Shown here: positions 58,518 to 64,000 of the stretch, piece after piece | Position numbering within the stretch: position 1 is the first letter of the stretch | Layout: each line of letters starts with the position of its first letter | NCBI RefSeq assembly: GCF_001426885.1 | Contig: NZ_LMFP01000010.1 | Coordinates: 8,949 to 72,948, forward strand | Direction: 5' to 3' | DNA from: Pelomonas sp. Root1444 | GTDB lineage: Bacteria; Pseudomonadota; Gammaproteobacteria; Burkholderiales; Burkholderiaceae_C | DNA: 64,000 nt | Position numbers and translations under genes: made by a program | Notes under the pieces: model-generated | Told to the model about the DNA's origin: nothing | The model's database searches: none | The model's input: only the letters and a program-made list of their open reading frames with translations

Positions 58518-59435
58518 TCAGGCCGCTTCGGTCAGCGCCTTCTTCATCTTCTTCATCGCCGCCACCTCGATCTGGCGGATGCGCTCGGCCGACACGCCGT
58601 ACTCGGCCGCCAACTCGTGCAGCGTCATGCCGCCGGACGCGTCGTCGTTCACCTTCAGCCAGCGCTCCTCGACGATGCGGCGGCTGCGCGGGTCCAGCAC
58701 GTCCAGCGCGCGGTGGATGCCGTCGCCGGCCAGCTCATCGCGCGAACGGGCCTCGATGACGCGCGTCGGCTCGTGGCTGTCGTCGGCCAGATAGGCGATG
58801 GGGGCGAAGCTCTCGCCTTCGTCGTCGGTCTGCGGCTCCAGGGCCACGTCGCCGCCGGACATGCGCGTCTCCATCTCCAGCACTTCCTCGCGCTTGACGT
58901 TCAGCGTGCTGGCCACATGGGCCACTTCGGCTTCGGTCAGCGTGTTGCGGTGCGTGGCAGCGTCGCTCTGGCCCGCCTTGAGCTGGTGCTTCATCGAGCG
59001 CAGGTTGAAGAACAGCTTGCGCTGGGCCTTGGTCGTCGCGACCTTGACCATGCGCCAGTTCTTCAGGATGTACTCGTGGATCTCGGCCTTGATCCAGTGC
59101 ATCGCATAGCTGACCAGCCGCACGCCCTGGTCCGGGTCGAAGCGCTTGACGGCCTTCATCAGGCCGACGTTGCCTTCCTGGATCAGGTCGCCCTGGGGCA
59201 GGCCGTAGCCGACGTACTGGCGCGAGATGGACACGACCAGACGCAGGTGCGACAGCACCAGCCGGCCCGCGGCTTCCAGGTCACCCTCGTCACGCAGGCT
59301 GCGCGCGGCGGAACTTTCCTCCTCCGCGGTCAGCAGCGGCAGGCGGTTGACGGCGGAGATGTACGCGTCCAGATTGCCCAGCGAGGGCACGAGGGCCCAA
59401 GGGTCGCGAACGGCAATGGCGGAAGAGGCAGACAT
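58518..59435 (-). CDS. rpoH: RNA polymerase heat-shock sigma factor 32
   Basis: 305 aa. Region 1-2: 'NLDAYISAVNRLPLLTAEEE', 'LVLSHLRLVVSISRQYVGYG' and 'LPQGDLIQEGNVGLMKAVKR' near 83-102, 'YAMHWIKAEIHEYILKNWRM' (2.3-2.4) near 117-136. The RpoH-specific box 'QRKLFFNLRSMK' is near 143-154. Region 4 HTH is 'TLHELAAEYGVSAERIRQIE' near 274-293. ATG at 59435 with AAGGAA upstream. The promoter is overlapped by a perfect CIRCE operator, so HrcA control is expected in addition to the usual sigma-32 circuits. Confidence 0.97.
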   Translation of the reverse strand: MSASSAIAVRDPWALVPSLGNLDAYISAVNRLPLLTAEEESSAARSLRDEGDLEAAGRLVLSHLRLVVSISRQYVGYGLPQGDLIQEGNVGLMKAVKRFDPDQGVRLVSYAMHWIKAEIHEYILKNWRMVKVATTKAQRKLFFNLRSMKHQLKAGQSDAATHRNTLTEAEVAHVASTLNVKREEVLEMETRMSGGDVALEPQTDDEGESFAPIAYLADDSHEPTRVIEARSRDELAGDGIHRALDVLDPRSRRIVEERWLKVNDDASGGMTLHELAAEYGVSAERIRQIEVAAMKKMKKALTEAA

Positions 59436-59484
59436 CGTCTTGATTCCTTCTGAACCGCCGCGTGTGGATGCGGCGGCGAAGGGA

Positions 59485-59514
59485 ATATTAGCACTCCGCC
59501 ATACCGAGTGCTAA
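59485..59514 (-). promoter_or_regulatory. predicted rpoH promoter overlapping CIRCE
   Basis: On the minus strand TTAGCA (59514-59509) and TAATAT (59490-59485) are 18 bases apart, matching a sigma-70 promoter (4/6 and 5/6). The predicted start is about 43 bases before the rpoH ATG. HrcA bound here would block polymerase. Confidence 0.55.
59488..59514. promoter_or_regulatory. CIRCE element (HrcA operator) upstream of rpoH
   Basis: TTAGCACTC (59488-59496), nine-base spacer, GAGTGCTAA (59506-59514): a perfect match to the CIRCE consensus. It is 53 bases upstream of the rpoH ATG. CIRCE usually controls groESL or dnaKJ through HrcA; no groESL or dnaKJ gene is nearby, so it must serve rpoH. Confidence 0.95.
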
Positions 59515-60115: not shown

Positions 60116-63100
60116 TCATTCTGCCCGCTCCGACCTTGGCGGCGATGCCAACAATTCGTCAACCAGGGCCAGCAGTTCACGCACGTCCAGTGGCTTGGTC
60201 AGGTAGTGGTCGGCACCGGCTGTGCGGGCCAGCGCCATCTGATCGGGCTGGGCATTGGCGGACACCACGACGACCGGCGGCGCGGCGCCGCCCAGCTCGC
60301 GCAGGCGGGCGAGCAGGCTCAGGCCGTCGCCGTCGGGCAGCTGCCAGTCCAGCAGCAGCAGGGCCGGTGGCCGTTCGCGCAAGGCCTTCAGGCCGGCTGC
60401 GACCGTCGGCGCCACCTCCAGCTCCAGCCCCGGGCGCTGCTCGAGGATGCCGCGCATGACCTCGGCGTTCAGCGGGTTGTCCTCCACGTACAGCACGCGC
60501 CGGTGCGGGCCGGCCTGCGGCGCTGCGGGGCCGTCCGCGGCGGTGGCGGGGGCGGCGGGTACGGCAGCGCCCGCCGCCGGCAGCCGCAGCACGAAGCAGG
60601 CGCCAGGGCCGTCCTGCGCTTCGGCGCGCAGGCTGCCACCCATCATTTCGGCCAGCCGCAGGCTGATGACCAGGCCGATGCCGGTGCCGGGCAGGCCGCT
60701 GCTCTCGCGGCCGAGGCGGTTGAAGGGCTGGAAGAGGGCAGCGCGCTGCTCATCCGTCAAACCCAGTCCCGTGTCGCGCACCGCGACCTCCACCCAGCCG
60801 GGCTCTGGGCTGGTCGCCGTGATGCTGACGCTGCCGCCGTCCCGGTTGTACTTGACCGCGTTGCTCAGCAGGTTGGTCAGCACCTGCGTGACGCGCGTCG
60901 GGTCGCCGACCACGCGCAGGGAGCCCGGGTCCAGCCGCTGGCTGATGGCCAGGCCGCGCTCGGCCGCGCCCTGCTGCACCAGGGCCAGCGCCCGGGCCAG
61001 CAGCGGCGGCAGCTCCAGCGCCACCGGCTCCAGCCGCAGCGAACCGGCCTCGATGCGCGACAGGTCCAGCGTGTCGTTGATCATCTCCAGCAGGTGCCAG
61101 CCGGCCTGGGCGATCTGCTGGGCGCGGCCGCGCTGCGAGGCTGCGAGCGGCTCGGCGGCGTCCATCTGCATCAGCTGCGTGAAGCCGAGGATGGCGTTCA
61201 TCGGCGTGCGCAGCTCATGGCTCATGCGCGACAGGAACTCGTTCTTGGCCTGGTTGGCCGCCTCGGCGGCCTCGCGCGCGCGGTCCAGTTCCTCGATGCG
61301 CAGCTGGTCGGTGATGTCCTCGACGACACCGACCAGCCGCTGCGGCCGGCCATCGTCACCGCGCAGCAGGCTGACGAGCACGCGGGCGTGCACGATGGTG
61401 CCGTCCGGCCGCACATAGCGCTTCAGGCGCCGGTAGAAGGGAATCTCGCCGCGTGTCAGGCGGCGCGCCTGGCGAACGTCCTCGCGGCGGTCGTCCGCGT
61501 GGGTCACGTCGATGGAGCGTTTGGCCGCCAGCGCCTCGGCCGGGTAGCCGACCATGCGGCAGAAATGCGCGTTGACCTCCTTGAAACCGCCATCCAGGTC
61601 GGTGAAGGCGATGCCGATGGGTGCCGTCTCGAAGATGCTGCGAAAGCGCTGCTCGCTCTGGCGCAGCGCCTGCTCGCCCTCGGCGCGGTTGGCGATCTCG
61701 CGCTCCAGTTCCGCCGTGCGCTTCTTGACCAGCGCTTCGACATGCTGCGTGCGACCCGACATCAGCAGCAGCAACGCGCCCACCATGGCGGTGGCCAGCA
61801 GGCCCACCAGCGCGAAGGCCCAGCTGCGCCCTGGGGCGTGGACCATCCCGGGTAGGTCGTAGATGCGCACCTCCCAGTGCCGGCCGCCGAACTCCAGCGG
61901 CATCCTGACGAGCGGCAACACGGCGTCGCTGCCGCGCTGCACGGCCTCGCAGCCGCGCCGGCCGCCCAGGCGCGGATAGGCCGCGCCCGGCTCCAGGTCG
62001 ACGAGGCAGGCGCCCAGATGCTCGGGCCAGTTGGCGGACAGGCGCGACAGCAGCACGTCCGGCCGCAGCGTTGCAAAGGCCACGCCGTCTAGCGCATCCT
62101 CCCCGGGCCCTGCCGCGGCGCGGAACAGGCGCTGGTAGACGACGACGCCGACGGCGCCTTCCTTGTCCTGCGACAGCTGGAAACCTGCCGACGCGACCGG
62201 CCGGCCCGAGGCCGCCGCCTGGGCGATCGCGGCGCGCGCGCTCGGGATGGTGCGCACATTGATGCCGAGCGCCCCGGCGTTGCGCGACAGCGGCTCGACG
62301 AGGCGGATGACCATCATGTCCTCGTCCGCCGGGGGGCTGACGTCGCCCGCCCGGGTGCGGTCACGCGCCCGGAAGCCGCCCGGGAAGCCGTCCGCCGCCG
62401 CGGCGGCATTGAAACGCTCGACGTCCGCGCGCGCCACGCGCAGCGACTGGCCCAACGCGATCAACGGGCTGTCCTGAGCCAGGAAACCCTGAGTCGCGCG
62501 GGCGAACTCCTCGCGCGTGGGCCGCGGCTTGACCTTCAACAGGCCATGCACGCTCTCCAGCGCCAGCAGCGGCTCGCGCAACCGGCCGGCCAGCGCCTGG
62601 GCGGCGTTGCTGGCTTCGCGCACGAAATCGGCGCGGTCGCGCTGGCGGTCCCATTCCACCGTCACGGCCACCCCCAGCCCGACCAGCAGCGTCGTCAGCA
62701 GCATGGGCAGCCCGACGCTGAAGCGTCGCGTCGCCCACGCCGAGCGCGGGTGGCCGATCAGCGCCAGCGTGATGGGCGTGGCGATCAGCACGCCCATCAG
62801 GTCGCCGGTCCACCAGATCGTCCAGACCAGGCCCATCTGAGCGGTGGCGATGACGTCGGTTGCCCTGAGCAGCAGCGTCGCGCAACTGGGGCTGATGAGA
62901 CCGGCCAGCGTCGCCGCCACCAGGTACCCCGCGATCTCGCGCGGCGAGGCCAGCAGCAGCGGCCGGCCGCACCAGCGCCGCATCAGCAGCGTGCCGGCCG
63001 CGGCCTGGGCCGCGGCGCCGCAGCCGATGCCCAGTGCCAGTTGCACCGGCTGGCTGCTGAGTTCGCCCAGCATCGTCGCCTGCACGACGAAGGAGCCCAG

Positions 63101-63307
63101 CGCCACCGCCGGCAGGTAGCGCAGGCCCAGCACCAGCAGCACCGCCAGGCCCCAGCCTGCCGCCGGGTAGATGGGCGCCACCTGGTAGGGCGGCAGCACC
63201 ATCAGCAGCCCCAACCGGCCCAGCAGGTAATAGACGACCGTGATGCCCGCGGACAGCGCCAGGTAGCGGCCGAGGTCGCGGGCGCTGACCCCGCGCGCCA
63301 CGCTCAT
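60116..63307 (-). CDS. hybrid sensor histidine kinase (MASE1-CHASE-PAS-HisKA-HATPase-REC)
   Basis: 1063 aa from the ATG at 63307. N-terminal MASE1 with about eight TM helices (about 10-270: 'LSAGITVVYYLLGRLGLLMV', 'PIYPAAGWGLAVLLVLGLRY', 'WTIWWTGDLMGVLIATPITL'). A periplasmic CHASE domain (about 285-470) is followed by a TM near 505-525. A PAS domain follows ('QRFRSIFETAPIGIAFTDLD', about 560-680). HisKA has the phospho-His in 'SRMSHELRTPMNAILG' near 695. HATPase has 'LLSNAVKYNRDGGSVSI' and 'GLPGTGIGLVISLRL'. The C-terminal receiver has its Asp in 'LLLDWQLPDGDG' near 988. The signal is unknown. Its start overlaps the upstream permease stop (ATGA), and cheW follows. A longer frame upstream of 63307 lies in the permease gene. 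Confidence 0.93.
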   Translation of the reverse strand: MSVARGVSARDLGRYLALSAGITVVYYLLGRLGLLMVLPPYQVAPIYPAAGWGLAVLLVLGLRYLPAVALGSFVVQATMLGELSSQPVQLALGIGCGAAAQAAAGTLLMRRWCGRPLLLASPREIAGYLVAATLAGLISPSCATLLLRATDVIATAQMGLVWTIWWTGDLMGVLIATPITLALIGHPRSAWATRRFSVGLPMLLTTLLVGLGVAVTVEWDRQRDRADFVREASNAAQALAGRLREPLLALESVHGLLKVKPRPTREEFARATQGFLAQDSPLIALGQSLRVARADVERFNAAAAADGFPGGFRARDRTRAGDVSPPADEDMMVIRLVEPLSRNAGALGINVRTIPSARAAIAQAAASGRPVASAGFQLSQDKEGAVGVVVYQRLFRAAAGPGEDALDGVAFATLRPDVLLSRLSANWPEHLGACLVDLEPGAAYPRLGGRRGCEAVQRGSDAVLPLVRMPLEFGGRHWEVRIYDLPGMVHAPGRSWAFALVGLLATAMVGALLLLMSGRTQHVEALVKKRTAELEREIANRAEGEQALRQSEQRFRSIFETAPIGIAFTDLDGGFKEVNAHFCRMVGYPAEALAAKRSIDVTHADDRREDVRQARRLTRGEIPFYRRLKRYVRPDGTIVHARVLVSLLRGDDGRPQRLVGVVEDITDQLRIEELDRAREAAEAANQAKNEFLSRMSHELRTPMNAILGFTQLMQMDAAEPLAASQRGRAQQIAQAGWHLLEMINDTLDLSRIEAGSLRLEPVALELPPLLARALALVQQGAAERGLAISQRLDPGSLRVVGDPTRVTQVLTNLLSNAVKYNRDGGSVSITATSPEPGWVEVAVRDTGLGLTDEQRAALFQPFNRLGRESSGLPGTGIGLVISLRLAEMMGGSLRAEAQDGPGACFVLRLPAAGAAVPAAPATAADGPAAPQAGPHRRVLYVEDNPLNAEVMRGILEQRPGLELEVAPTVAAGLKALRERPPALLLLDWQLPDGDGLSLLARLRELGGAAPPVVVVSANAQPDQMALARTAGADHYLTKPLDVRELLALVDELLASPPRSERAE

Positions 63308-64000
63308 TCCGCCTGGGCCTCGCGCAACGTCTGCATCACCGGCCGTTGCAGCACGCCGCGCAGGCTCCACCAGCCGGCGCTCCAGGCCAGCAGTGCACCG
63401 CAGACCGCGCTGACGAACGGCACCCAAGGCTTGATCGCCCAGTCGAACTCGAAGACATAGCGCGCCAGCAGCGCGGCCAGCACCAGCGCCACGCCACCGG
63501 CCAGGAAGCCGGCCAGCGCGCCCACGCCCAGCAGCTCGGCACGCTGCACCTGTGCCAGCAGCGACGACGGCGCGCCCAGCGCCCGCATCAGCGCGAACTC
63601 GCGCGTGCGCGCCTCGCGTGTGCTGCCCACGGCGGCCAGCAGGACGACCAGGCCGGTCGCCAGCGTGAAGCCGAACAGGAATTGCACCGCCTGGATGACC
63701 TGGTCCAGCACGCCCTGCACCTGGTTGAGCTGGGCCGACACGTCGATGACGGTGAGGTTGGGGAACTGCCGCGCCAGCTCGCGGTCCAGCTTCGCGCCGG
63801 CTGGCAGCCGAAAGGCGGCGATCTGCGTGGATGGCAGGTCGGGCAGGTTGGCGGGCTCGAACAGCACGAAGAAGTTGACCCGCATCGACGACCAGTCCAC
63901 CTTGCGCAGGCTGGTGACGCGGCCCTGCACCGGCTGGCCGGCGATGTCGAACGCCAGCTGGTCGCCCAGCTTCAGGCCCAGCGTCTGCGCCAGGCCTTCC
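63304..64000 (-). CDS. ABC transporter permease, FtsX/YbbP-like (5' end outside window)
   Basis: C-terminal part of a permease, about 231 codons visible; the frame is open to the window edge. A periplasmic segment ('LAQTLGLKLGDQLAF', 'NFFVLFEPANLPDLPSTQIA', 'FPNLTVIDVSAQLNQVQGVL') leads into FtsX-domain helices ('FLFGFTLATGLVVLLAAVGS', 'REFALMRALGAPSSLL', 'LLGVGALAGFLAGGVALVLA'). This matches YbbP-type permeases of the lysophospholipase-associated YbbA/YbbP transporter. The stop overlaps the hybrid kinase ATG. Confidence 0.87.
   Translation of the reverse strand, partial: EGLAQTLGLKLGDQLAFDIAGQPVQGRVTSLRKVDWSSMRVNFFVLFEPANLPDLPSTQIAAFRLPAGAKLDRELARQFPNLTVIDVSAQLNQVQGVLDQVIQAVQFLFGFTLATGLVVLLAAVGSTREARTREFALMRALGAPSSLLAQVQRAELLGVGALAGFLAGGVALVLAALLARYVFEFDWAIKPWVPFVSAVCGALLAWSAGWWSLRGVLQRPVMQTLREAQAE

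Follow-up and report, generated by a model that had tools for sequence, protein, structure and literature searches.

In Escherichia coli the heat-shock gene rpoH is read from several promoters and is under the control of a translational thermosensor. The sigma factor and its purpose are the same there as in the bacterium studied here, but HrcA and its operator CIRCE are absent from E. coli (according to the passages of PMC545781 drawn on here), and repression by HrcA at the promoter of rpoH would add a level of control. The closest described system is that of Geobacter sulfurreducens, for which a perfect 9-9-9 CIRCE at -51 of rpoH was predicted in 2004 (PMC545781, Table 8); the same passages give groESL as the only constant HrcA target and cite Permina and Gelfand 2003 for beta-, gamma- and epsilon-proteobacteria. 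For Bacillus subtilis and Helicobacter pylori, parts of a review describe HrcA operators that overlap core promoters, and an HrcA that is activated by GroE until unfolded protein titrates GroE away (PMC6032397). CIRCE upstream of rpoH is known as a kind, and our literature searches for it in betaproteobacteria led only to the Geobacter case; no priority is claimed. What is added here is a rule for the whole order, the shared absence of site and hrcA, and the overlap of operator and promoter, all of which may have appeared in print earlier.

We have found a comparable arrangement in Pelomonas sp. Root1444, in a stretch of 64,000 nucleotides (hereafter the window). Its minus strand carries rpoH (58518..59435), coding for a sigma-32 of 305 aa with an equivalog-level match to TIGR02392 (391.5 bits, cut-off 323.1), a match to NF005143 (409 bits) and the stretch QRKLFFNLR, which we take to be the RpoH box. 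The protein is 96% identical to that of a Burkholderiales MAG (L278) and 85% to that of Roseateles violae (L316), which places the window in their vicinity. Close before the gene, at 59488..59514 and with no strand of its own, the letters TTAGCACTC-CGCCATACC-GAGTGCTAA form a perfect 9-9-9 inverted repeat. Scored against the published CIRCE consensus of 18 positions, TTAGCACTC-N9-GAGTGCTAA, the site has 0 mismatches (18/18), which bears out the base-for-base match claimed in the first-pass annotation; a perfect consensus CIRCE upstream of rpoH is also what was described in G. sulfurreducens (PMC545781, same passages). Even when 3 mismatches are allowed the window has no other site, and none at this tolerance appeared in any of 100 dinucleotide-shuffled windows. 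Between the site and the ATG of rpoH lie 52 bases. The span originally given, 59485-59514, corresponds to CIRCE plus the three bases past it in the rpoH direction (TTAGCACTCGGTATGGCGGAGTGCTAATAT), which complete a -10 hexamer.

Along the minus strand the order is a cheW-like gene (60083-59583; PF01584 130.7 bits, NF007903 195.1 bits, below the cut-off of 260), a weak terminator-like hairpin (59561-59543; one found by consensus scan versus 0.6 expected from shuffles), CIRCE (59514-59488) and rpoH (59435-58518). Upstream of the cheW-like gene there is a long ORF of the hybrid sensor histidine kinase type (60116-63427), with TorS/ArcB-like matches below cut-off.

At rpoH the operator coincides with a promoter-like pair. 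Read toward rpoH, the first six bases of CIRCE are a -35-like TTAGCA (left arm; 59509..59514, minus strand), which agrees with TTGACA in 4/6 letters and lies 18 bases before TAATAT (59485..59490, minus strand), the TAA of which ends the right arm while TAT falls outside. A TG at 59492..59493 on the same strand, inside the right arm, gives an extended -10 (TGC-TAATAT) when compared with the sigma-70 pattern TTGACA / TGN-TATAAT at 16-18 bases. The first-pass annotation had described a good -35/-10 pair overlapping the operator: the overlap, the extended -10 and the conservation of the pattern in relatives hold, but the pair has 8/12 consensus letters and was not reported by a promoter consensus scan of the window at a threshold of 9. 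With CIRCE on the putative -35 and -10, the same 30 bases would be required by both HrcA and RNA polymerase. The Geobacter passages give no such promoter overlap (PMC545781).

To follow this geometry among relatives we have used 121 rpoH sites with no more than 2 mismatches (69 in the family and 52 elsewhere in the order, where two sites with 4 mismatches were set aside), and 27 groESL sites obtained by applying a simple groES motif to 51 loci (L002, L035-L064, L252-L271), some of which are rpoH loci. The hexamer reads TAANAT in 102/121 rpoH sites, TANNAT in 108/121 and TANNNT in 121/121, and with the preceding bases TGC-TAANAT is found in 102 and TGC-TANNNT in all 121. TGCTA is likewise present in 121/121, although the conservation of the TG is by itself no proof of a promoter, these bases being shared with CIRCE. 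Past the operator, bases 2-3 are AT in 108/121 rpoH sites versus 0/27 at groESL, and the third base, the closing T of the -10, is found in 121/121 versus 1/27 (p 4e-28; kinship among the genomes makes this and the p values given below overstate the evidence). A longer palindrome was rejected as the cause of the conserved T: only 12/121 sites have an A at the mirrored third position ahead of CIRCE, and a -10 starting inside the site is therefore the better reading. The arms also change unequally at the 121 rpoH sites (left-arm position 3 in 27 of them, right-arm position 25 in 0); as evidence for a protected -10 this was dropped, given that groESL leans likewise (3 versus 1 of 27).

CTTGA, with which the sigma-32 -35 consensus opens, precedes CIRCE in 27/27 groESL sites (within a 35-base stretch) versus 6/121 rpoH sites (within a 30-base stretch), and in most of the 27 TATA-like bases separate it from the operator. 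The groESL promoters thus look sigma-32-dependent. Within the order the same operator and repressor appear to serve two designs, with CIRCE downstream of a sigma-32-type promoter at groESL and on the putative promoter core at rpoH. Some Gram-positive CIRCE elements act from the 5' UTR, and the groESL sites, lying downstream of sigma-32-type bases, indicate that both placements exist in the order. The rpoH promoter could by analogy lie further upstream, leaving CIRCE in the 5' UTR as a roadblock or as an mRNA hairpin. We regard this as very improbable, because the AT past the site is conserved at rpoH and not at groESL and the mirrored A is rare, which argues for the -10 that starts inside the operator.

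The repressor on which such an operator would depend is encoded in the genome: L004 contains an ORF of 335 aa with both HrcA Pfam domains (PF01628, 223 bits; PF03444, 29 bits), the presence of hrcA having been singled out in the first-pass annotation as a point to check. A divergent ORF next to hrcA is presumably NAD-kinase-like, a name given from its sequence, and two simple sigma-32 promoter patterns had no match upstream of hrcA. The whole genome (5.89 Mb) has three CIRCE sites with up to 3 mismatches, located before rpoH (0 mismatches), groES-groEL (1, in L002) and a CBASS-type operon (2). Within this limit there is none before hrcA or any further gene, dnaK and grpE included (neither gene was itself located), unlike in G. 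sulfurreducens, where CIRCE is also found at hrcA-grpE-dnaKJ (PMC545781, same passages).

The CBASS-type site (L003 1501-1527, G000:C28:65673-65699) stops 12 bases short of the start codon of a gene for an oligonucleotide cyclase (PADLOC Cyclase 486 bits, Pfam SMODS 157 bits); next comes an E1-E2-like gene, truncated where the locus ends. By chance, about 0.02-0.12 sites with 2 mismatches are expected per genome. The cyclase had a match in 14/300 order genomes and, besides the genome's own, only that of G206 (41% identity) was near full length. A conserved CIRCE at CBASS was rejected, the G206 locus having no site better than 5 mismatches (8/18 fetched loci were scanned). From the site in this genome, HrcA control of the anti-phage (CBASS-type) system is conceivable.

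The scan of related genomes proposed in the first-pass annotation gave a uniform picture within the family. CIRCE with up to 2 mismatches was found before 69/70 rpoH genes from 69 same-family genomes, our own included: before all 30 top-ranked genes (20 of the sites perfect) and 39/40 further ones. The 30 loci were the best RpoH matches of 120 genomes, own genome included, and the 40 took in the ranks that follow, except rows G045 and G043, and the 20 full-length matches at the bottom of the ranking; 51/120 family genomes lie outside these counts. One rpoH per genome, the best-matching, was examined in this and the other sets, except for G067 (6% contamination listed), which is in both sets with two copies, hence 70 genes in 69 genomes. 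The sole miss, G093, is a 55% complete genome without hrcA match.

Outside the family the site was present at rpoH in 54/60 genomes of the order (52 with up to 2 mismatches and two with 4), covering 41/46 families sampled; the set comprised G120-G182 minus G125, G149 and G164, where rpoH was not matched well. CIRCE with up to 2 mismatches was absent from the whole genome of all six misses (G138, G153, G159, G160, G163 and G171, with a 5-mismatch remnant in G153), and so was any hrcA match. Counting sites with up to 4 mismatches, 53/53 genomes with hrcA had one at rpoH, versus 1/7 without it (Fisher p 1.4e-7); the lone exception, G170, is 84% complete, and two of the hrcA-bearing genomes had weak sites only (4 mismatches). 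The hrcA-less genomes without site fall in six families. The same association appeared when CIRCE with up to 2 mismatches was searched anywhere in 150 order genomes (129/133 with hrcA versus 3/17 without, p 1e-13), and the three hrcA-less genomes that have it are 78-84% complete. Four genomes had hrcA and no CIRCE: G125 (68% complete), G191 (87% complete), G149 (96% complete, no good rpoH match) and G203. In this last one hrcA is a fragment with an internal stop (G203:C49:23722-24117), possibly an hrcA loss in progress.

As far as these genomes go, CIRCE at rpoH is the usual arrangement in Burkholderiales and no oddity of a single genome. The first-pass annotation had called it not a textbook arrangement, which needs correcting: it is the usual state of the order and was already predicted in G. 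sulfurreducens (PMC545781, same passages). A palindrome present at rpoH by chance or as a relic would be contradicted by the conservation through the order and by the joint absence with hrcA, and only about 1e-5 to 1e-4 perfect matches are expected per genome of this size. Together with the shuffled windows, the order-wide conservation rules out a chance origin, and we give the chance-or-relic explanation practically no credit.

We have also searched beyond the order, in 160 genomes drawn from the phylum, 40 of them in the class and six of these in the order. In the class part, CIRCE with up to 2 mismatches was found at rpoH in 11/12 genomes with hrcA (G620 being the lone exception) versus 0/26 without it (p 1e-8); these 26, of the 28 that lack hrcA, were examined up to 4 mismatches, G606 and G644 being left out. 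Outside the class, 32 rpoH genes were fetched from among the 120 genomes, and 26/32 of the genomes concerned have hrcA. Two of them, G642 and G645, have a 1-mismatch site and G511 a weak one with 4 mismatches; in 24/26 genomes with hrcA the best-matching rpoH lacked a site within 2 mismatches, and HrcA control of rpoH is therefore not obligatory. Among the genomes sampled, CIRCE at rpoH is thus mostly a feature of the beta/gamma lineage. A separate pattern search, which required the CIRCE core, AANAT and an RpoH box and so shows taxa and is no test of conservation, gave at least 120 matches, and rpoH was confirmed at 80/80 loci among the matches listed. Examples with rpoH checked, gammaproteobacteria among them, include Variovorax, Comamonas, Roseateles, Bordetella and Nitrosomonas, and further ones are Alcanivorax, Pseudoalteromonas, Rheinheimera, Thiothrix and Methyloglobulus. 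Two of the 11 class genomes with hrcA and the site, G602 (L074) and G540 (L076) from one gammaproteobacterial family, have TTAGCAGTC as left arm at rpoH, with right arms GACTGCTAA and GATTGCTAA respectively. The G602 arms carry a matching change, which suggests an HrcA with shifted specificity.

Downstream of the promoter-like element, the 62-nt rpoH leader folds with -22.5 kcal/mol (z -2.57). The predicted hairpin (59454..59477, minus strand) lies immediately past the expected transcription start and leaves free the Shine-Dalgarno-like GAAGGA (59445..59450, minus strand). Several near relatives (L006, L009-L013, L015) have leader hairpins of other sequence in the same place, which suggests a conserved structure in the rpoH leader. 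In 16/69 family rpoH sites (e.g., L017, L019-L021, L023, L028, L030, L033, L194 and L199) a GGAAC right after CIRCE is followed at 17-19 bases by TCTGA or something close to it (letter shuffles gave a mean of 0.04 and at most 1), versus 0/52 order sites. The pattern resembles a sigma-E promoter, for which P3 of E. coli rpoH is the comparison, and in some leaders its -10 overlaps the start codon region. The window's own rpoH leader has no GGAAC after CIRCE.

HrcA might bind at rpoH with only a minor effect, the level of sigma-32 being set mainly by translation and stability, as in E. coli, and the operator only trimming basal transcription. We consider this possible, if rather unlikely. The predicted 5' UTR hairpin in this genus is in its favour, and so is E. 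coli, where chaperones and proteolysis govern how active and how stable sigma-32 is (PMC6032397, in part). In Xylella fastidiosa under nitrogen starvation hrcA increased more than 4-fold, groESL decreased about 6-fold and rpoH increased 2-fold (PMC11764788, in the portion used), a pattern in which rpoH rose together with hrcA and that, if Xylella has the site, would count against simple HrcA repression of rpoH. Against a minor effect, a near-perfect operator that is kept in 41/46 families sampled outside the family and missing where hrcA is missing argues for a selected control, of whatever size. One temperature comparison in one symbiont, with GroEL and RpoH both up (PMC12617022, in the part consulted), was not used as evidence.

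The perfect site, the conserved promoter-like element and the distribution of hrcA all support the HrcA control of rpoH put forward at first pass, as a prediction from genomes. The mechanism that we favour, and that very probably applies, is a feed-forward control by HrcA and GroEL in which HrcA would repress the embedded rpoH promoter and groESL too. A housekeeping promoter of the sigma-70 type would drive rpoH, with CIRCE lying on its -35, spacer and -10, and active HrcA bound there would exclude RNA polymerase by competition. Extending to Pelomonas rpoH the HrcA/GroE behaviour reviewed in PMC6032397, we infer that free GroEL would assist HrcA, as it does in B. subtilis and H. pylori. Once GroEL is taken up by unfolded proteins, or HrcA itself is unfolded by heat, rpoH and groESL would both be released. 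Since groESL carries what looks like a sigma-32-type promoter along with its own CIRCE, the three connections (HrcA repressing rpoH, HrcA repressing groESL and sigma-32 activating groESL) would make a coherent feed-forward loop, which GroEL would close by restoring HrcA.

HrcA repression and sigma-32 activation, often seen as parallel, would here stand in series: HrcA would limit the amount of sigma-32, and both would act on groESL. The conservation in the order, and the fact that site and hrcA are missing together in six of the families sampled, provide a testable rule for the joining of repressor and sigma-factor circuits; if the rule is true, an hrcA mutant of these bacteria is expected to be altered in sigma-32 too. 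A broader reading, which in our judgement could equally well prove right or wrong, is that in members of the beta/gamma lineage with hrcA the repressor stands at the head of the entire sigma-32 response. A single 30-base element would be both operator and rpoH core promoter, hard to evolve apart, and with the loss of hrcA the rpoH gene would have lost its operator and changed its promoter. If this is true, HrcA regulons, usually called small, would be global via sigma-32.
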